Source: Planifilum fulgidum (lineage in GTDB: Bacteria > Bacillota > Bacilli > Thermoactinomycetales > DSM-44946). From it: a DNA stretch of 44,837 nucleotides. Position 1 is the stretch's first letter; every line of letters starts with the position of its first letter. The notes under the pieces were generated by a model. That model made no database searches. It was not told where the DNA came from and worked only from the letters and a program-made list of their open reading frames with translations. Location: contig NZ_FOOK01000030.1 in assembly GCF_900113175.1 (NCBI RefSeq), forward strand, positions 1 through 44,837, given 5' to 3'. Shown here in pieces: positions 4,435 to 26,322 of the stretch. Both the position numbers and the translations under genes were made by a program.

Positions 4435-4474
4435 ATGGCCCACGAGCACTCTCCACCCGTCAAACGGATGGAAG

Positions 4475-4575
4475 AGGCAAATTCCCTGCGCTGGCATTAT
4501 CCAGATCAGGTTCGGCGGGTCGGTGCCGATCCGGGCACCCTCTCAGCCGGGCTTCCCCCAGCTCCCCGTTGCCTA
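4475..4575 (-). ncRNA. TPP riboswitch (THI box)
   Basis: The minus strand contains the conserved THI-box elements in order: TAGGCAA closing strand, GGGGAGC, GCTGAGAGGG, then AACCTGATCTGGATAATG, CCAGCG, CAGGGAA and TTGCCT, which re-pairs with the first strand to close P1. It binds thiamine pyrophosphate in the nascent RNA. The terminator at 4407-4434 makes transcriptional attenuation the likely mechanism. It controls the thiamine-binding protein/thiX/thiY/thiZ operon. Confidence 0.95.
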
Positions 4576-4590
4576 TTCAGTTTCAGCTAC

Positions 4591-10921: not shown

Positions 10922-13132
10922 TCAGTTTTCCCCAATGCCGTTTCCACCGCCGCCTCCGGTGTTTCCGCCGCCATCTCCGCCGCCGGTTTCGCCGCCGCTG
11001 CCGCCGCCATTTCCGCCGCCACCGGGATTCCCGCCGCCGGTTTCGCCGCCGCCATTTCCGCCGCCACCGGGGTTCCCGCCGCCTTCACCGTTGTTACCGC
11101 CTGGGTGGGGGGGCGGGGAAGTGTTGTCGCCGCCGTTGTTACCTCTGCCGGGATTCGGTTGCGGCCGGGAATCGGGCGGTTGCGTGCCCGGTCCGGGGGT
11201 GTGGGGTTTTTCCGGTCCTGGATTCCAGGACGGTCCGTCGCTTTCGGGAGTGGAAGGTCCTTTCTTGGTGGGCCCCTCGAAGGATTTCGGCTTGAGTCCG
11301 GCATGGATCTCGGACATCACTTTGTGGAAGATCCGCGCCGGATAATCGCCGCCGCTCAGTTGGACCCGGCTGCCCTTGTCGTTGTAGACCATGGTGGCCA
11401 TGACGTAGCGCGGGGTGTAACCGACGAACCACGCTTCCTTGTAGTTCTGGGTCGTTCCCGTCTTTCCGGCCACTTCCCAGCCGGGGATCCGGGCGTTCTG
11501 CCCCGTTCCTCCCTCGACGACAAACTTCAGGATCTTCGTCATGATCCGGGCCGTCTGCGGACTGAACACTTTCCGCTGTTCCGGTTCCTTTTTCGGTTTC
11601 ACCTCGTCCCCGTCCCAAGCCTCAATCTTGCGGATGGTGTGGGGCTCGATGATCTTTCCGTCATTGGCGAAGGCGCTGTAGGCCCCCGCCATCTGAACGG
11701 TGTTGACTCCCTCGGTGAGGCCGCCCAGGGCGAGGGGAGCCAGGTAGCGGTCCTCCTTCTTGATGGGGAGTCCCATTTTTTTGGCGTATTCCGCTCCGGT
11801 CTTCACTCCGACCACTTCATGCAGCAGACGGACCGTGGCGGCGTTCAGGGATTTGGCGGCCACCGTGCGAAGGGGGACCCACCCCGAATAGGTTCTCGAG
11901 TAGTTTTGGGGCGACCAGCCGTTGACGGTGATCGGCGCATCCAGGACGCGGGTATACTCCGTGTATCCTTTTTCCTCGACGGCGGGGGCATACACGCTGA
12001 TCGGCTTGATGGAGGAGCCCGGCTGTTTCGGCAGCAAGGCCCGGTTCAGGTATCCGCTCAGATAGTTGCGGCCGCCGCCGACGGCGACGATTTCGCCGTT
12101 TTTCGGGTCAATGATCGTCGCTCCGGCGTCCAGGCCGGAATGGGCCTTGAGGAGAGGATCGTTTTTCAGCGTGTTTTCCAGGGTTTTTTGGGCGGAGGGA
12201 ATCAAACCGGTGTAGATTTTGTAAGCGCCGCTGGTCAGCTCCTGTTCGTCCATGCCGTAGCGTTCGGCCGCTTCGTCGATGACCATGTCCACGTAGGCGG
12301 CGTACTGGTTGTTCTTTTTGTATTTGGAGAGATACTTCCGGTTGACTCCCAGTCCCTTTTTCTGGTACTTTTTATTTTCCGCTTTGCTGATGAGTCCGGT
12401 CTCTTCCATCACGTCGAGGATGGTGTCCCGGCGATCCTTTGCCTTTTTGGGATGCAGGTAGGGGTTGTAAGATCCCGGTGCCTTGGGGAGACCGGCCAAG
12501 AGGGCGATTTCGTGGGGTTCCAGCTCCTCTTTGGTGATGTCCTTGTCGAAATAGATCTTGGCGGCCATTTTGACGCCGCGGACCTGGTTTCCGAGGTAGA
12601 TGTAATTGAGGTAGGCTTCGAGGATTTCGTCCTTGGTGTAACGGCGTTCCAGGTTCCAGGCGATCAGCGACTCCTTGATTTTCCGGCTCAGTTCTTTGTC
12701 CCGGTCTTGCAGGATGGCGTTCCGTGCGACCTGCATGGTGATGGTCCCGCCGCCCTCCACCGCGCCCATGGCGAGGAGGTTGCGCACCGTCGCCCGCCCG
12801 ATGCTTTTCCAATCCACGCCGTTGTGTTTGTAAAAGCGCCGGTCTTCGACGGCGACAAAGGTTTGGATCAGCAGATCGGACTTGATGTCCTCCAGCTTGA
12901 CGTATTCGAAGTGGGTGTCGCCGAGCTGGACCACTTTTTTATTTTGCCTGTCATACAAGGTGGAGGCGAAGTTCATCTTTTTCATCGATTCCAGATCGTA
13001 AACGCCGCCGGTCAGGAAGACGGCGGAACAGCCTCCGGCAATCAAAAGCAAGGAGGTGGTCAACACGAGGAACCACCATTTTTTCCCCATGCTTTTCCGC
13101 CACAGTTTCCACATCAACTGGAGTTGTCTCAT
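10922..13132 (-). CDS. Class A penicillin-binding protein (transglycosylase/transpeptidase)
   Basis: 736 aa, makes and cross-links peptidoglycan outside the membrane. A short cytoplasmic N-terminus precedes one membrane anchor (WWFLVLTTSLLLIAGGC). Transglycosylase motifs: FVAVEDRRFYKHNG with the catalytic Glu and GGGTITMQVARN. Transpeptidase motifs in order: SxxK in PGSSIKP, SxN in KSLNAAT and AGKTGTTQ. The last 110 residues are a Pro-rich linker and then an almost pure Gly/Asn/Glu tail, longer than usual for the family. The ATG at 13132 has GGGGAG about 10 nt upstream and puts the anchor near residue 20. It is probably transcribed alone; a hairpin with a T-run lies in its leader. It corresponds to PBP1-type enzymes; the exact paralogue cannot be told. 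Confidence 0.92.
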   Translation of the reverse strand: MRQLQLMWKLWRKSMGKKWWFLVLTTSLLLIAGGCSAVFLTGGVYDLESMKKMNFASTLYDRQNKKVVQLGDTHFEYVKLEDIKSDLLIQTFVAVEDRRFYKHNGVDWKSIGRATVRNLLAMGAVEGGGTITMQVARNAILQDRDKELSRKIKESLIAWNLERRYTKDEILEAYLNYIYLGNQVRGVKMAAKIYFDKDITKEELEPHEIALLAGLPKAPGSYNPYLHPKKAKDRRDTILDVMEETGLISKAENKKYQKKGLGVNRKYLSKYKKNNQYAAYVDMVIDEAAERYGMDEQELTSGAYKIYTGLIPSAQKTLENTLKNDPLLKAHSGLDAGATIIDPKNGEIVAVGGGRNYLSGYLNRALLPKQPGSSIKPISVYAPAVEEKGYTEYTRVLDAPITVNGWSPQNYSRTYSGWVPLRTVAAKSLNAATVRLLHEVVGVKTGAEYAKKMGLPIKKEDRYLAPLALGGLTEGVNTVQMAGAYSAFANDGKIIEPHTIRKIEAWDGDEVKPKKEPEQRKVFSPQTARIMTKILKFVVEGGTGQNARIPGWEVAGKTGTTQNYKEAWFVGYTPRYVMATMVYNDKGSRVQLSGGDYPARIFHKVMSEIHAGLKPKSFEGPTKKGPSTPESDGPSWNPGPEKPHTPGPGTQPPDSRPQPNPGRGNNGGDNTSPPPHPGGNNGEGGGNPGGGGNGGGETGGGNPGGGGNGGGSGGETGGGDGGGNTGGGGGNGIGEN

Positions 13133-13218
13133 GCGCAAACGGCTCCCCCCTTTCGGTTCCCCTGTACACCCATCTCTTTCTATCCGCAAACGGCATCGGC
13201 TTTTTCCCATGCCGGACG

Positions 13219-13251
13219 ACAAAACCCATGCGTTGCGAGGAAACGCATGGG
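13219..13251 (-). terminator. Hairpin with T-run between the dehydrogenase and pbp genes (terminator or attenuator)
   Basis: Minus strand: 10-bp arms CCCATGCGTT/AACGCATGGG followed by TTTTG. It is about 250 bp after the dehydrogenase stop and 87 bp before the pbp start. It either ends the dehydrogenase transcript or attenuates pbp. Confidence 0.6.
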
Positions 13252-13500
13252 CTTTGCGCAAATGACATCCTGAGCTCCAACCATCATCCATTGTATGTGG
13301 TTGGGGAGGTTTTCATCACAAAGCAGGCGTTGAAAAAATCCTTTTGCAGATGGAGCATCTATGCAAAGGGTCCATACGTTGTGCAACGGCAAGGAGCAAC
13401 ATGAAACGCTGTTCCCCAACGGTTTCCGACTGAGGCCGAACGCCCCCTAATTGTTAATTCTACCCAAAATCCGGTGAAAAGCAAGAGTACGGAAAAGGTT

Positions 13501-19583: not shown

Positions 19584-19683
19584 GGTGAAAATATGTGGAA
19601 ATGATCCCCCGGCTGTGGTCTTTCGGCCGCGGGTTGGATTACAATCGGCAATGAAAGTTTCCGACAGGCTCAGGAGGTTGCAA

Positions 19684-20232
19684 ATGAGTTCCAAAACGGA
19701 TGTGTCCAACAGTAGGAAGTTTGTGGCGGATGAATTTATGGAGCGGCTTCAACAGCACCGGCGATATCTGTATCACATCGCTTATCGCCTGACCGGAAAT
19801 TCGGAGGATGCCAAGGATTTGACCCAGGAGACCATCTGGCAGGCTCACCGGAAATCGAACAAATATGTCTATGAAAAGTCCCTGAAGGCTTGGCTCCGGA
19901 CGATGATGACCAACCTGTTCCGGGATCTGAAGCGGAAAAAAAGTCTGAAACTGGTAGCGCTGGAAGACGCGTTTATACATTCGGAACCTCCTCTCTCGGT
20001 GGGCACCCAATCCGTTGAGGAGCAGGTGGAGAACCGCCTCCTGCTGGAGCGGGTGAAGGAGGAGATATGCGATTTGCCTGAAATTTACCGCCGCGTCATT
20101 GTTTTGCGCCATTTCCATTCGCTTTCCTATTCGGAGATCAGCGAACAACTGGATATTCCCGAGGGAACGGTGAAAACTCAGCTGTTCCGCGCGCGGAAGA
20201 TGCTGAAGGAGCGATTGACCAAGAATGATTGA
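19684..20232 (+). CDS. ECF-family RNA polymerase sigma factor
   Basis: 182 aa. Region 2 (RYLYHIAYRLTGNSEDAKDL, TQETIWQAHR) binds core polymerase and the -10 element. Region 4 (DLPEIYRRVIVLRHFHSLSY, EISEQLDIPEGTVKTQLFRA) is the -35 helix-turn-helix. The ATG at 19684 is chosen for AGGAGGTT 6 nt upstream; the frame is open from 19585. The gene is followed after 15 bp by its probable anti-sigma factor, the usual autoregulated pair. The stimulus cannot be read from the sequence; envelope stress is the common one for zf-HC2-controlled ECF sigmas. Confidence 0.9.
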   Translation: MSSKTDVSNSRKFVADEFMERLQQHRRYLYHIAYRLTGNSEDAKDLTQETIWQAHRKSNKYVYEKSLKAWLRTMMTNLFRDLKRKKSLKLVALEDAFIHSEPPLSVGTQSVEEQVENRLLLERVKEEICDLPEIYRRVIVLRHFHSLSYSEISEQLDIPEGTVKTQLFRARKMLKERLTKND

Positions 20233-20247
20233 GGAGATGACCGGGGA

Positions 20248-21000
20248 ATGTCTTGCCGGGATATGGATCGGCTAATCCAACTTTATGTGGATCGGGAACT
20301 GGACGAATCAGGCGTTCAACTCCTGCGCGAGCACGTGGCCGGCTGCACTGCCTGCAAGCGAAATCTGCAAGAGATGGTGGCACTGGTCAACACCCTGGAG
20401 GAGATACGGACCCATGTTCGCATGCATTCCGCTCCCGCTTCCTTGATATGGATGAAAAGGGCGGCCGTCTGTTTGTCGATCGCGGTGTTGATCTACCTGG
20501 CTCCCTTTGGTGCGTTGCCCTGGTTTGCCGACGAGCCGCAGATGGCGGTCAACCGCGGCGAGTCGGGCATTTCCCGGGAATTGCCCGAAGCGGCGCCGCA
20601 CAAGGTGATGGTTTTTGCTACCCAGGGGGAAACCTTGCACATTCCCCAGAGCGACTATATTCGCGTGGTGAGCCCCAAAAAGTTCGATCCGGAGTCCGGA
20701 ACCGAGACGGTGTGGATTTACCCCAGCGCCATCCCGTTTTTTCTGGAGGACGACTCCTCCTGGTACACCCGGATCAAGCGGTTGGTTTTTGTCAGGGTGC
20801 CGGATGACCGGACCTTCAAAACCCTGATGTCCACTTTTGGCATCGGTTTGGATCAAGGGACGGAACAGTTGGGCGACACGGCTTTTCCCACCTCCGTCAT
20901 CATCACTCTGGGAAAAGAGCCGAAACTGACCACCTTCACCTTTCCGGAGCAGGAGCAGGAAATTTCCCGGTGGTTTGAAAAGCTTTCGGCGATCCGCTGA
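20248..21000 (+). CDS. Membrane anti-sigma factor with zinc-finger (zf-HC2) N-terminus
   Basis: 250 aa. The N-terminus carries the ZAS-type zinc motif: Cys3, then HVAGCTACK giving His and the CxxC pair (about residues 29-36), which binds and inhibits ECF sigma factors. One membrane segment follows (SIAVLIYLAPFGALPWF, about 75-92), and then a 155-residue exported domain with a strand-rich pattern and no family I can name. The layout sigma/anti-sigma with a 15-bp gap predicts release of the upstream sigma by proteolysis or zinc loss. The ribosome binding site is weak (GGGGA), favouring coupling to the sigma gene. Confidence 0.85.
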   Translation: MSCRDMDRLIQLYVDRELDESGVQLLREHVAGCTACKRNLQEMVALVNTLEEIRTHVRMHSAPASLIWMKRAAVCLSIAVLIYLAPFGALPWFADEPQMAVNRGESGISRELPEAAPHKVMVFATQGETLHIPQSDYIRVVSPKKFDPESGTETVWIYPSAIPFFLEDDSSWYTRIKRLVFVRVPDDRTFKTLMSTFGIGLDQGTEQLGDTAFPTSVIITLGKEPKLTTFTFPEQEQEISRWFEKLSAIR

Positions 21001-21287: not shown

Positions 21288-22406
21288 GTGAGCCGGAGCC
21301 TGAGTCGATTGGATGAACTGAGAAGTCGGTTGGATGAGATCAACCTGCAGTTGCTCAACCTGATGAGCAAACGCGGGGCGATCGTCAAGGAGATTGGGGA
21401 GATTAAAAAGAAACAGGGAGTTCAGAAATTTGACCCCGTCCGGGAGCGGGAGATGCTGGACCAGCTGGTCAAGCACAACACCGGTCCCTTCGATGATGAG
21501 ACGATTCGCCACCTGTTCAAGCAGATTTTCAAGGCGTCCCTCGAACTGCAGCAGGACGATCACAAAAAGACCCTACTCGTCAGCCGGAAGGATCATCCTC
21601 AGGATACGGTGGTCATGATCGGGGACGTTCCTGTCGGCAATCACCGGAAAGCCGTCGTGGCCGGCCCCTGCTCGGTGGAATCGGAGGAGCAGGTCCGCAA
21701 GGTGGCCGAATCGCTCAAGCGGCAAGGATTGCGCCTCTTGCGCGGCGGCGCTTTCAAACCGCGGACATCGCCCTACGACTTTCAGGGACTGGGCGAGGAA
21801 GGGTTGCGCATTTTGCGCCGCGTTGCCGATGAATTCGGTCTGAAAGTGGTCAGCGAGATCGTGAATCCCGCCGACATCGAGATGGCCGTCAAATACGTGG
21901 ACGTGATCCAGATCGGGGCCCGCAACATGCAGAACTTTGAGCTTCTGAAGGCGGCGGGATCGGTGCGCACGCCGGTCTTTCTCAAGCGGGGCATGTCGGC
22001 GACCGTGGAGGAGTTGCTGTTTGCGGCGGAATACATCGTTTCCCGCGGCAACCGGCAGGTCATTCTCTGCGAGCGGGGAATTCGGACTTACGAAAAGTGG
22101 ACGCGGAACACCCTGGATATCTCTGCGGTGCCTCTCCTGAAGCAGGAAAGCCATCTTCCGGTATTTGTCGACATCAGTCACGCCACGGGACGCAGGGACA
22201 TTTTGCTCCCGGTGGCCAAGGCGGCACTGGCCGCCGGCGCCGACGGAATCATGGTGGAGGTGCACCCCGAACCCGCCGTCGCCCTGTCGGATGCCCATCA
22301 GCAAATCGACATTCCCCAATTTGAGAAGTTGATCTCCGACCTCCGCCAATCGGGACTGCTGTCGGAATCTCAGGATCCGGCTTCCGTGGCATCTTCGGGA
22401 AAATGA
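21288..22406 (+). CDS. aroG: Bifunctional chorismate mutase/3-deoxy-7-phosphoheptulonate synthase
   Basis: 372 aa, first step of the shikimate pathway: phosphoenolpyruvate plus erythrose-4-phosphate gives DAHP. Residues 1-90 are an AroQ-type chorismate mutase domain ([20 protein letters not shown]) acting as a feedback sensor. From about 110 on comes the type-I-beta DAHP synthase barrel with [67 protein letters not shown] and [11 protein letters not shown]. This fusion is the Bacillus AroA(G) form. The GTG at 21288 follows GGAGAGGAG. In Bacillus this gene is directly upstream of ccpA; here a large repeat-protein gene separates them. Confidence 0.94.
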
Positions 22407-22489
22407 CGCTTGCCGGAGCAAAAATGCCGACAGCCGGTCTGACTGTTTCCGAAGAATGAAGCCGTGCCGCGCCATCGCGGAATGCTGTG

Positions 22490-22534
22490 AATCCTCGCCC
22501 TGGAACCTTCACGAGGAAAAGGGGCGGGGATTTT
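22490..22534 (+). terminator. Terminator of aroG
   Basis: AATCCTCGCCC pairs with GGGGCGGGGATT (one G-U) across a 20-base loop, followed by TTTT; it lies about 85 bp after the stop. Confidence 0.6.
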
Positions 22535-22585
22535 CGTTGGAATAAGATGGTGGGGGTGGAAATCGTCGATCCCCTTTTTTCCTGC

Positions 22586-22591
22586 TATAAT
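22586..22591 (+). promoter_or_regulatory. -10 box (TATAAT) before the repeat-protein gene
   Basis: Perfect TATAAT 28 bp before the GTG start. No -35 resembling TTGACA is found at 16-18 bp. Confidence 0.45.
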
Positions 22592-22618: not shown

Positions 22619-25147
22619 GTGCCAACCCCTTCGATTTACTATCCGGGTGCAGGCGACCTTCATTTGCGGTCCGAAAGGGTGGAGTTGGAAGTGGACGGAC
22701 GTCGGTTTTTGCACGAGGCCAATCGAGATAAGTGGCCCCCGGAGCGGCTTTTCAGGGTCATGGCGCAGCATGTGCCGAAGCTTTATGTTCCTTACCTGCT
22801 GACAAACACAGGCAAAAAGCGGCCTCTGGTCTCACCGGGGCCGTCTCCGAAAAGTCAGCGGATGATCCTTTTCACCGATCCGGAGCCGGCAAAGCTGCTC
22901 CGAGTGGATCAGTCACTCACGCTGGTGGAGCGGAAGGCGCTGGATCTCCTGCGGAAGGCCTTTCGTTCGGATTATGCCGGGTTGGTGATCAATCCGGGCG
23001 ATTCATCGCGGCGGGTCCTCAACCGGGAGGAGATGCTTCTTCTCTTTCGCGAATATGCGGTGATTGAAGGACGGCGTTTGGGTGGAGGATGGGTTCCGAC
23101 CCGGGGGGACAAAATGTTATTGGTCCAGTTGGAGGATGGGACCTATACGGTGACCGTCTATATCGATGAACGGGATGTCCGGGAAGTGTGCGACTCCTGC
23201 GGAGGAGAACCGGTCCTTCATTCCTGGGACGTGATCCATAACCGTTGCCTTCAGGCGGGAGCCAGTGCTCCCTATGTCCAATTCGGTTTTCCGGAACAAG
23301 TCCTTCTGCTTCCCCGGCATATGAACCAGCTGCGAGGGCAGGATCCGGTGGCACAAGCCCTGGAATGGCAGCCGAGCCCGGAGGCGGTTCATTCGCAGAA
23401 ACAAGCATCGGATTGGCAGCGTTCTCCGGAGTCGGTCCAGCCTCGGGAGCAAGCTTCGGAACGGCCGGAGACTCCGGAGTCGGCTCAGCCGCAGAAACAA
23501 GTATCGGATTGGCAGCAGACTTCGGAGTCGGTCCAGTCGCGGAAGCAGGTATCGGATTGGCAACAGCCGCCGGAGTCGGTCCAGCCTCGGGAACAAGCAT
23601 CGGAATGGCCACAGGGTCCGGAGTCGGTTCAGCCTCAGGAACAAGTAGCGGAAAGGCGGCAGGCCACGGAGCAGGTTCAGCCGCAGGAACAAGTCGCGGA
23701 TTGGCAACGGTCTTCGGAGTCGGTTCAGCCTCGGGAACAAGCGCCGGAGCGGCCGCAGTTCCCGAAGTTGGCTCAGCTGCAGGAGCAAGTATCGGAATGG
23801 CAGCAGTCTCCGGATGCTGTCCCACAGGAGAAGGTAGCAGAATGGCAACGTTCTCCGGAGCCGGTCCAGTCGCAGGAACAAGCGTCGGAATGGCAGCAGA
23901 CTACGGAGCAGGTTCAGTCTCGGGAGCAAGTCGCGGATTGGCGACGGTCTCCGGAGTCGGTTCAACCTCGGGAACAAGTATCGGAATGGCCACAGGGTCC
24001 GGAGTCGGCTCAGCTGCAGGAGCAAGTTCCGGAATGGCAGCAGGCCACGGAGCAGGTTCATCCGCAGGAACAAGCATCGGAATGGCAGCAGTCTCCGGAG
24101 TCGGTTCAGCCTCGGGAGCAAGTCGCGGATTGGCAGCAGACTCCGGAGCCGGTTCAACCTCGGGAGCAAGCCTCGGATTGGCAGCGGGGTCCGGAGTCGT
24201 TCCAGTCGCAGGAACAAGCGTCGGAATGGCCACAGGGTCCGGAGTCGGCTCAGCTGCAGGAGCAAGTTCCGGAATGGCAGCAGTCTTCGGAGGCAGTTCA
24301 TCCGCAGGAGCAAGCCTCGGAATGGCAGCCGAGCCCGGAGGCGGTTCATCCGCAGGAACAAGCATCGGAATGGCCACAGGGTCCGCAGTCGGATCAGCCT
24401 CGGGAGCAAGCTTCGGAACGGCCGGAGACTCCGGAGTCGGCTCAGCCACAGGAACAAGTAGCGGATTGGCAGCAGGCTACGGAGCAGGTTCAGCCGCAAG
24501 AACAAGTCGCGGATTGGCAACGGTCTTCGGAGTCGGCTCAGCCTCAGGAACAGGTATCGGATTGGCAGCGTTCTCCGGAGCCGGTTCAGCCGCGGAAGCA
24601 AGCCCCGGAACAGTTGCAAAGTCTGGAGCCTGCCCAACCGCAGGAACAAGCCCCGGAACGGCCGCAGGAACAGGAGCCGGTGCGGGTGCGGGAAAAAGAA
24701 CGGGAAAGTCCGGAGTCCCGGGAAACCAAGGAATCTCTCGAGCGGTTGGAACAGGCGGTGAGGAGAGGGCAAGGATGGGTAAACACTCTGGAGATCATCC
24801 GGCGGATGAAGGAGCTGAGAAAGATTTGGGTCATCGTCGATCCGGACGGAAAGCCGGTCTTCCTTGATTCGGGGTCAAGGGTTCCGGTGGTGGATTTCTT
24901 TACTTCCCGGGACCATGCGGTTCGCCTGATTCAAGTGTTTCGGCAAGGGGGGAAAGAACTTCCCGATTTGGAGCCCCGGCTGGTGGATGCCCGTCCGCTG
25001 TTCAAACGGCTTGCCGCTTACAACCCGGTCGTCTGGATCAATCGGGGAGCCCCGGAAGGATGGATCTGCGTCTCCGATCATCTGCTGTCCGCCGTCCTCG
25101 CCGAAAGTTTTACCGATTCGGGTGTTTTTTCCGAAGCGGAACAATGA
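22619..25147 (+). CDS. Large protein with 28 tandem 16-residue repeats between two conserved-looking end domains
   Basis: 842 aa, no signal peptide or membrane segment, so probably cytoplasmic. Residues 1-245 form a folded-looking domain: RMILFTDPEPAKLL, then DYAGLVINPGDSSRRVLNRE, reminiscent of SseB-type proteins, then a CDSCGGEPVLHSWD motif. Residues 246-692 are 28 near-perfect copies of a Gln/Glu/Ser/Pro-rich 16-mer with a Trp or Arg at position 5. Residues 693-842 are a charged linker and a C-terminal domain with WVIVDPDGKPVFLD, VPVVDFFTSRDHAVRLIQVF and YNPVVWINRGAPEGWICVS, also SseB-like in style. The GTG start has only a weak GGGAAA site. No function can be assigned. The layout, two globular ends on a long flexible spacer, suggests a scaffold or tether. 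Confidence 0.75.
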   Translation: MPTPSIYYPGAGDLHLRSERVELEVDGRRFLHEANRDKWPPERLFRVMAQHVPKLYVPYLLTNTGKKRPLVSPGPSPKSQRMILFTDPEPAKLLRVDQSLTLVERKALDLLRKAFRSDYAGLVINPGDSSRRVLNREEMLLLFREYAVIEGRRLGGGWVPTRGDKMLLVQLEDGTYTVTVYIDERDVREVCDSCGGEPVLHSWDVIHNRCLQAGASAPYVQFGFPEQVLLLPRHMNQLRGQDPVAQALEWQPSPEAVHSQKQASDWQRSPESVQPREQASERPETPESAQPQKQVSDWQQTSESVQSRKQVSDWQQPPESVQPREQASEWPQGPESVQPQEQVAERRQATEQVQPQEQVADWQRSSESVQPREQAPERPQFPKLAQLQEQVSEWQQSPDAVPQEKVAEWQRSPEPVQSQEQASEWQQTTEQVQSREQVADWRRSPESVQPREQVSEWPQGPESAQLQEQVPEWQQATEQVHPQEQASEWQQSPESVQPREQVADWQQTPEPVQPREQASDWQRGPESFQSQEQASEWPQGPESAQLQEQVPEWQQSSEAVHPQEQASEWQPSPEAVHPQEQASEWPQGPQSDQPREQASERPETPESAQPQEQVADWQQATEQVQPQEQVADWQRSSESAQPQEQVSDWQRSPEPVQPRKQAPEQLQSLEPAQPQEQAPERPQEQEPVRVREKERESPESRETKESLERLEQAVRRGQGWVNTLEIIRRMKELRKIWVIVDPDGKPVFLDSGSRVPVVDFFTSRDHAVRLIQVFRQGGKELPDLEPRLVDARPLFKRLAAYNPVVWINRGAPEGWICVSDHLLSAVLAESFTDSGVFSEAEQ
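23354..24694 (+). repeat. 48-bp tandem repeat, 28 units, coding
   Basis: Units translate as Q-(A/V)-(S/A/P)-(E/D)-(W/R)-x-x-x-x-E-x-x-Q-x-x-(E/K), typified by QASEWPQGPESAQLQE. All are 16 residues except the tenth, which is 15. Copies 14-15 and 19-20, 7-8 and 24-25, and 3 and 23 are nearly alike, pointing to block duplications larger than one unit. The array has no stop codon in at least one other forward frame and two reverse frames. Confidence 0.9.
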
Positions 25148-25293: not shown

Positions 25294-26322
25294 ATGGAAA
25301 AAAAACGCGGAGCGGTAACAATTTATGATGTGGCGGAAGAAGCGGGCGTTTCCATGGCCACCGTGTCCCGGGTCATCAACGGGAGCCCCAATGTGAAGCC
25401 GGCCACGCGAAAAAAGGTGCTGGAGGCGATTCGCCGTCTGGGATACCGTCCCAACGCCGTCGCCCGCGGGCTGGCCAGCAAACGGACAACGACCGTGGGT
25501 GTGGTGATTCCGGATATCTCCAGCGCGTTCTTCGCCGAACTTACGCGGGGGATCGAGGATATAGCCAACATGTACCACTATAACATCATCATCTGCAATT
25601 CCGATCAACAGAAGCAGAAGGAATTGCAGCTGAGCGAGACGCTCCTGGAAAAGCAGGTGGATGGCCTGCTCTTTCTGGGCAGCGAGGTGACGGATGAACA
25701 CCGGGAAATTTTCGACGGGGCCCTGGTTCCCGTCGTTTTGGCGGCCACGGTGGACCGGAAGGGGAAATATCCCTCGGTGTCGATCGACCAGAAACAGGCC
25801 GCCTTTGATGCCACCGAAGCGCTGATCCGGGAGGGACACCGGGAGATCGGCCTGATCTGCGGCCCGTTGACGGATACGATCAACGCCTATCCCCGGTATG
25901 AGGGATATCGGGCGGCTCTCGAGAAACACGGCCTCTCTTTCCGGGAAGATCTGGTTCGCATTGGGGATTACCGCTACCGGTCGGGGATTTCGGCGATGGA
26001 AAGCCTCCTGGCCGCCCCGTCTCCGCCGACGGCCGTCTTCGTCGCCGGGGATGAAATGGCCGTGGCGGCGATTCACGCCGTCCAGGATGCGGGGAAATCG
26101 GTTCCCGGAGATGTTTCGATCATCGGGTTCGACGATATTCCCCTGGCGTCCCAGGTGCGTCCGCAACTCAGCACGGTTTCCGTGCCGATGTACGATATCG
26201 GGGCCGTGGCCATGCGCCTTTTGACCAAATACATGAACGATGAGCCGGTGGAGAATCATGAAGTGGTCCTCCCGCACCGCCTGGAGTTCAGGGAGTCCAC
26301 CCGCACCAGAGGAGAGGACTGA
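25294..26322 (+). CDS. ccpA: Catabolite control protein A (LacI family)
   Basis: 342 aa. Global regulator of carbon use; binds cre sites with HPr-Ser-P. The LacI helix-turn-helix is [20 protein letters not shown] (about 7-26), followed by the minor-groove hinge helix [12 protein letters not shown]. The effector core has [45 protein letters not shown] and [18 protein letters not shown], matching CcpA rather than sugar-specific LacI members. The position after the DAHP synthase gene is the Bacillus arrangement and supports the identification. The ribosome binding site is modest (GGGG, 9 nt). mtnN follows 75 bp downstream. Confidence 0.93.

Follow-up and report, generated by a model that had tools for sequence, protein, structure and literature searches.

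The window analysed here, 44,837 nucleotides of Planifilum fulgidum, is one entire contig of a genome of 3.38 Mb in 62 contigs. On its plus strand lie aroG, encoding a bifunctional DAHP synthase/chorismate mutase (21288..22406; NF009239, E 6.4e-186), and ccpA (25294..26322; TIGR01481, E 1.9e-152). Between these two neighbours, the ORF listing gives a single open frame on the plus strand, 22619-25147, with a GTG start, 842 amino acids and zero internal stops.

A sequence-only reading of this DNA had proposed an 842-residue product. The frame is open as described, but its start was probably placed too far upstream, and we prefer GTG 22691, with which the gene would span 22691..25147 and encode 818 amino acids. 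This start is the more likely because the stretch AAAGGGTGG ahead of it is conserved in the sister species (G001), because the segment 22619-22690 carries frame-shifting indels relative to that species, and because the match to the family profile starts at 22694. From GTG 22691 onward, the reading frame is preserved in the DNA alignment with the sister species. A Shine-Dalgarno-like stretch for the preferred start is found at 22674..22684 (+), its first nine bases being preserved in the sister species and followed there by an indel.

The interval between aroG and the gene contains a terminator-like hairpin with a T-rich tail (22486..22536, +; -26.9 kcal/mol, z -3.49), which is absent from the terminator list of the consensus scan, and a TATAAT box, a possible -10 element (22586..22591, +), within DNA that is unchanged in the sister species. 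The same type of scan gave no two-hexamer promoter for the gene. Since a stable T-tailed hairpin lies between aroG and the gene, the latter may form a transcription unit of its own.

Other features of the contig include, upstream of aroG (19585-21000, +), a Sigma-70-type factor; the protein encoded after it carries at its N-terminus a putative zinc finger (zf-HC2) of the kind found in anti-sigma factors. On the minus strand, a TPP riboswitch is located at 4464-4578 (71 bits, cut-off 54.3), and a class A penicillin-binding protein (Transgly and Transpeptidase domains) at 10922-13291. The latter ends in a Gly/Asn-rich repetitive C-terminal tail with tandem arrays (10940-11101), a second low-complexity extension on the contig.

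A conserved family upstream of ccpA

Matches to the N-terminal part of the protein are present in 28 of the 42 genomes of the order Thermoactinomycetales, and the C-terminal part was found in the same 28 (E 1.6e-16 or better), with both ends lying within one frame in every orthologue. The layout had been thought unlike that of any protein recognised, a claim that is not supported, since the two-ended architecture is so widespread in the order. ccpA is located downstream in all 27 relatives with the gene and aroG upstream in 24 of them; of the other three, G023 and G031 showed no aroG within 1.5 kb, and G032 has a contig end at this place. An N-terminal lobe and a C-terminal unit in one frame directly upstream of ccpA can be regarded as the trait of an aroG-X-ccpA family, and the gene of the window fits it. 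Its named members (13 loci) include Laceyella, Thermoactinomyces, Hazenella, Lihuaxuella, Baia, Croceifilum, Polycladospora and Paenactinomyces. Among the matches listed, we found no description of this family in the open-licence literature.

Twelve of the 14 non-matching genomes gave a ccpA locus, and in all 12 a gap of 215-420 nt separates the aroG match from that of ccpA, with neither end of the protein matched among the plus-strand frames listed between them. These genomes, with aroG beside ccpA and devoid of the gene, belong to families f2 (ten) and f5 (two). The other two, G002 (67% complete) and G028, yielded no ccpA match at the threshold applied and were left out of this set. In Bacillus, aroG adjoins ccpA, and the gene had been described as inserted between the two. 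Against Bacillus the description stands, but the gene is common to much of the order and, judging from the genomes compared, does not represent a recent insertion.

Beyond the order, the C profile matched one further genome (G210) among 398 sampled from the class, the N profile none of the same 398, and, among 398 genomes sampled from the phylum, the C profile matched the window alone. The match in G210 (L102, 5975-6373) is a stand-alone C-unit relative of 132 residues, found in a less closely related genome of the class and located beside what we take to be an mnmA-like gene. C-domain matches with E 0.02-0.94 were left out of the family count, and weak ones in G005 and G006 were discarded as chance since they fall within other genes with no aroG or ccpA nearby.

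Against the sister species, dN/dS amounts to 0.19 in the N lobe and to 0.25 in the C unit, compared with 0.039 for aroG and 0.082 for ccpA. By these values the folded ends are under purifying selection, yet evolving faster than both neighbours. Faster evolution is also what a decaying gene, its frame open by chance, would display, and six N-terminal matches were indeed flagged with internal stops. However, those stops are confined to the upstream edge of the match, ahead of the starts of the orthologue frames, dN/dS is far below 1 at both ends, and all 28 orthologues have the two ends in a single open frame, so that we give decay almost no credence.

The repeat array and the variable linker

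Tandem Repeats Finder places an array at 23362-24602, with a period of 48, 25.9 copies, 73% matches and a score of 994, the next-best tandem array in the window scoring only 146. Counted in register, the linker (23363..24703, +) holds 28 units with a consensus of about [ED]WQQSPESVQPQEQ[AV]S. The 28 copies reported earlier were thus recovered, but they cover 447 residues instead of 448, as 27 units have 16 residues and the tenth has 15. The final unit is degenerate, with 5 of 16 residues consensus-like. The periodic Trp or Arg that had been noticed is borne out at position 2, which is occupied by Trp in 22 units, by Arg in five and by Gln in one, each of the 22 Trp being preceded by D or E. 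Over the 27 full-length units, Trp is kept in 21, E7 in 25, E13 in 23, Q10 in 22 and Q14 in 26.

At the DNA level, the 27 full-length copies have a mean pairwise identity of 0.74, and adjacent copies are no closer (0.73). Several of the closest pairs are non-adjacent: copies 14 and 19 are identical, 1 and 21 share 0.96, and 3 and 23 share 0.94. That the closest copies are far apart, and adjacent ones no more alike, suggests that blocks of several repeat units were duplicated. The longest exact repeat inside the array measures 63 bases. When the array DNA was compared with its own genome, both matches fell within the gene itself and none elsewhere.

The 48-base period, being a multiple of three, explains the long additional open frames across the array (551 aa on the minus strand and 540 aa on the plus strand), which we do not take as evidence of genes. 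Within the array, pN/pS has its minimum, 0.62, in the protein's own frame and ranges from 0.74 to 1.12 in the other five, with all intervals overlapping. As the interval for the protein's own frame is 0.34-1.2, selection on the repeat itself is not significant.

Among the 28 proteins compared, only that of Planifilum fulgidum has the 16-residue repeat. The array is absent from the sister species, whose linker comprises about two residues, even though DNA identity between the two species is 87% and 89% on the two flanks. Over the 28 orthologues, linker length goes from 0 to 454 residues (one motif-based cut), in agreement with the earlier suggestion of a tether of variable length. Since linkers are short as well in families f3 (0 residues) and f4 (28-30 residues), the array is most likely an acquisition of the lineage of the window, its loss in the sister species being a formal possibility. 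As to where the repeat unit came from, the linker junction of the sister species provided no evidence (local alignment against shuffles, p = 0.42).

Tandem arrays were detected by Tandem Repeats Finder in the linkers of five of the 28 orthologues, that of the window included. The repeats of the other four are of a different kind, with periods of 36, 18, 12 and 12, the last two being short (3-4 copies). One of them, in Polycladospora coralii (L023 in genome G029, on a contig shared with L067), represents a separate linker array with a 36-base unit, 8.7 copies and 91% matches.

Some linkers carry conserved motifs, and linkers would therefore not be pure spacers everywhere. A pattern of the N[PTSA]YS type, marking a conserved island, is matched by six of the 28. 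In G023, G027, G031 and G041 (loci L024, L013, L026 and L029), 'NPYS[IL]K' with an 'EIY'-like stretch behind it stands as an island in otherwise divergent linkers, and the same is the case for a 'TYSAFDNPWDDDDDGF'-like stretch in G032-G034 (L028, L031 and L025); both are possible partner-binding motifs.

These motifs bear on an explanation in which the protein would be a multivalent scaffold, the 22 copies of an acidic residue plus Trp binding either a partner or the SseB-like lobes of the protein itself, with copy number setting the strength of the scaffold or condensate. Besides the regular Trp of the array, always behind D or E, this would be in line with the occurrence of [DE]W in eight of the nine Trp-bearing linkers or, with the window set aside, in seven of eight, covering seven of their 13 Trp; the N[PTSA]YS-type islands further indicate that linkers are able to hold motifs. 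However, 19 of the 28 linkers have no Trp at all, the linkers with [DE]W stem from few independent clades, and the sister species lacks the repeat. Within the array itself, Trp is no better conserved than E7, E13, Q10 and Q14, and selection, as described above, is not significant. We thus consider a multivalent scaffold unlikely.

The repeat could also be the working part of a spore coat or stress-related structural protein, an idea that draws on general background: these organisms sporulate, and structural proteins often contain tandem repeats rich in Q, E, S and P. Against it, conservation sits in the folded ends and not in the repeat, which is missing from the sister species, and the gene itself is missing from the ten f2 and two f5 genomes. 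Nothing found points to a spore-structural role, which is unsupported and, in our opinion, highly improbable.

Fold of the two ends

Structural models were built for the window protein and for its T. daqus orthologue from a 14-sequence alignment. The orthologue model (380 aa) reached a pLDDT of 80.5 and a pTM of 0.57, and that of the window protein (818 aa) 58.5 and 0.37, respectively. In ten-residue blocks of the window model, pLDDT averages 80-93 in the N lobe, stays mostly below 50 in the linker, and reaches 60-86 in the C unit except for its last block (45). The models are thus ordered at both ends, as the proposal of two globular ends had anticipated, and the linker of the window protein is predicted to be disordered.

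Three units can be delimited in the models. The N lobe would consist of N1 (22769..23065, +; about residues 27-125 of 818, approximate limits transferred from the orthologue model) and N2 (23066..23338, +; residues 126-216, window model), and the C-terminal unit, with two leading helices, would occupy 24710..25099 (+; residues 674-803, window model). Among the fold matches listed for these units, TTHA0547 (2z0r) and Tic22 rank first, with unrelated rows at Z <=3.5. TTHA0547 was matched by N1 with Z 8.5 (rmsd 2.5 over 90 residues, orthologue model) and by N2 with Z 8.8 (rmsd 2.4 over 88 residues, window model), values just above the Z of 7-8 that is common for models lacking a clear match. Tic22 chains gave Z 6.3-6.5 with N1 (orthologue model) and, for the C unit in whole-protein models, Z 5.5-6.3 within residues 698-787 (window model) and 5.2 (orthologue model), all of them within that range. 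The Foldseek E-values are modest, the lowest being 2.6e-3. The two best PDB profile matches are likewise Tic22 chains, at E 0.49 and 0.52, and the comparison of profiles among N1, N2 and the C unit was weak (best P 0.0009, probability 23%).

Profile searches were also made at the family level. The gathering cut-off of Pfam SseB (PF07179; 21 bits, the E. coli and Lactococcus ring serving as controls) is passed by the N-terminal part of 11 of the 28 orthologues, a twelfth genome, G018, exceeding it through a different locus. The N-terminal piece of the window protein stays below it (16.2 bits, E 0.012), and the T. daqus protein passed in one scan (22.9 bits) and fell below in another (20.6 bits). 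Together with the fold matches, these results agree with the faint SseB likeness seen at first, with the Pfam evidence coming from orthologues of the window protein. In 14 members scanned singly at E <= 0.1, SseB was matched in 11, the type VII secretion-associated profile NF033532 in 12 and DUF2750 in seven, the last one weakly (best E 0.0018). Further weak Pfam matches were TraN (three of 14) and three single ones, as well as Znf_Tenuivirus (E 0.038) and CBS (E 0.053) for the C part of the window protein. PADLOC matched neither end, and one weak PHROG match, to a family of unknown function, was obtained for the N part (E 0.0067). An SseB/Tic22-like fold is moderately supported for N1 and N2, and the models suggest that the C unit is a third unit of this type.

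The matches to NF033532 raise the question of a role in secretion, in which the protein, as a relative of type VII secretion-associated SseB-like proteins, would escort exported proteins. The best match among the members has an E of 4.8e-6, and a WXG100 protein, one marker of the type VII system, is encoded in seven of the 28 gene-bearing genomes. Nevertheless, the C part of the window protein scores 17.9 bits and the T. daqus protein 20.2 against a cut-off of 85; WXG100 had no match in the genome of the window or of the sister species, being absent from 21 of the 28 gene-bearing genomes and present in two of the 14 gene-less ones. Salmonella SseB is a different protein under the same name. 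In PMC9503650, the secretion link of SseB is backed by papers on Salmonella SseB. A type VII secretion role is unsupported and disfavoured, and we hold it to be very unlikely.

Proposed role and closest known systems

By analogy, the protein could be a cytosolic client-binding adaptor of the SseB/Tic22 type in which an entropic tether, lengthened by tandem duplication, carries the two lobes, a proposal to which we assign roughly even chances. According to PMC9503650, SseB is related to the Tic22 peptide-binding chaperones, and peptide or client binding has been predicted for SseB domains; as reported in PMC12895209, Tic22-III reduces the aggregation of insulin. The N-terminal lobe, with two SseB/Tic22-like units, and the C-terminal one, with a single unit, would be parts of a soluble, probably cytosolic protein, joined by a disordered, mostly acidic tether rich in P, E, Q, S and T. 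The maximal 19-residue hydropathy of 0.98 and an N-terminus that is not hydrophobic by eye speak against export. From the Tic22 analogy and the published SseB-domain prediction, we infer that the lobes may bind exposed peptide segments, unfolded clients or a partner protein, acting as a holdase-like adaptor, and that the tether would set the reach between them. The 28-copy array would have been born of repeated in-frame tandem duplication in a tether of weakly constrained length, and the repeat would therefore be mainly a spacer.

In a more elaborate version, the tether would be a fast-evolving multivalent platform: an acidic-Trp motif, present once in the linkers of some relatives, would have multiplied to 22 copies in this species, so that an SseB/Tic22-type chaperone would cluster its clients or itself through weak binding tuned by copy number, with tandem duplication generating the length variants. 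This version seems to us decidedly improbable. The family is real and conserved, and with the array its disordered tether has expanded at the level of one species; this does not amount to a new kind of system.

The family stands beside the gene of a global regulator, ccpA, in one bacterial order. With like ends, a like gene position and a tether going from none to 454 residues, it represents a natural experiment on disordered tethers, in which two sister species differ by the whole array. If the lobes do bind clients, the family would also offer a handle on the function of SseB-like proteins in Gram-positive bacteria.

Four known systems come closest to this protein. The SseB family (PF07179) shares the N-terminal likeness by which 11 of the 28 orthologues exceed the Pfam cut-off, but the matches extend mostly over the second half of the Pfam profile, the protein of the window remains below the cut-off, and here three units are combined in one chain with a disordered insert. 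Weak profile similarity also connects the C unit with the type VII secretion-associated protein NF033532, from which the members differ in falling far under the 85-bit cut-off, as does the genome of the window in having no WXG100 match. Tic22 (4ev1, 4e6z, 8xks, 8xqw) is one of the leading fold matches of N1 and of the C unit (Z 5.2-6.5, within the range of models without a clear match). Its site of work, according to PMC12895209, is the periplasm or the intermembrane space; contrary to Tic22, the protein described here has no hydrophobic segment and carries an additional unit on a tether. Finally, TTHA0547, an uncharacterised protein of about 100 residues, is the best structural match of both N1 and N2 (Z 8.5 and 8.8, just above that range), and consists of a single domain where the window protein would have three units.
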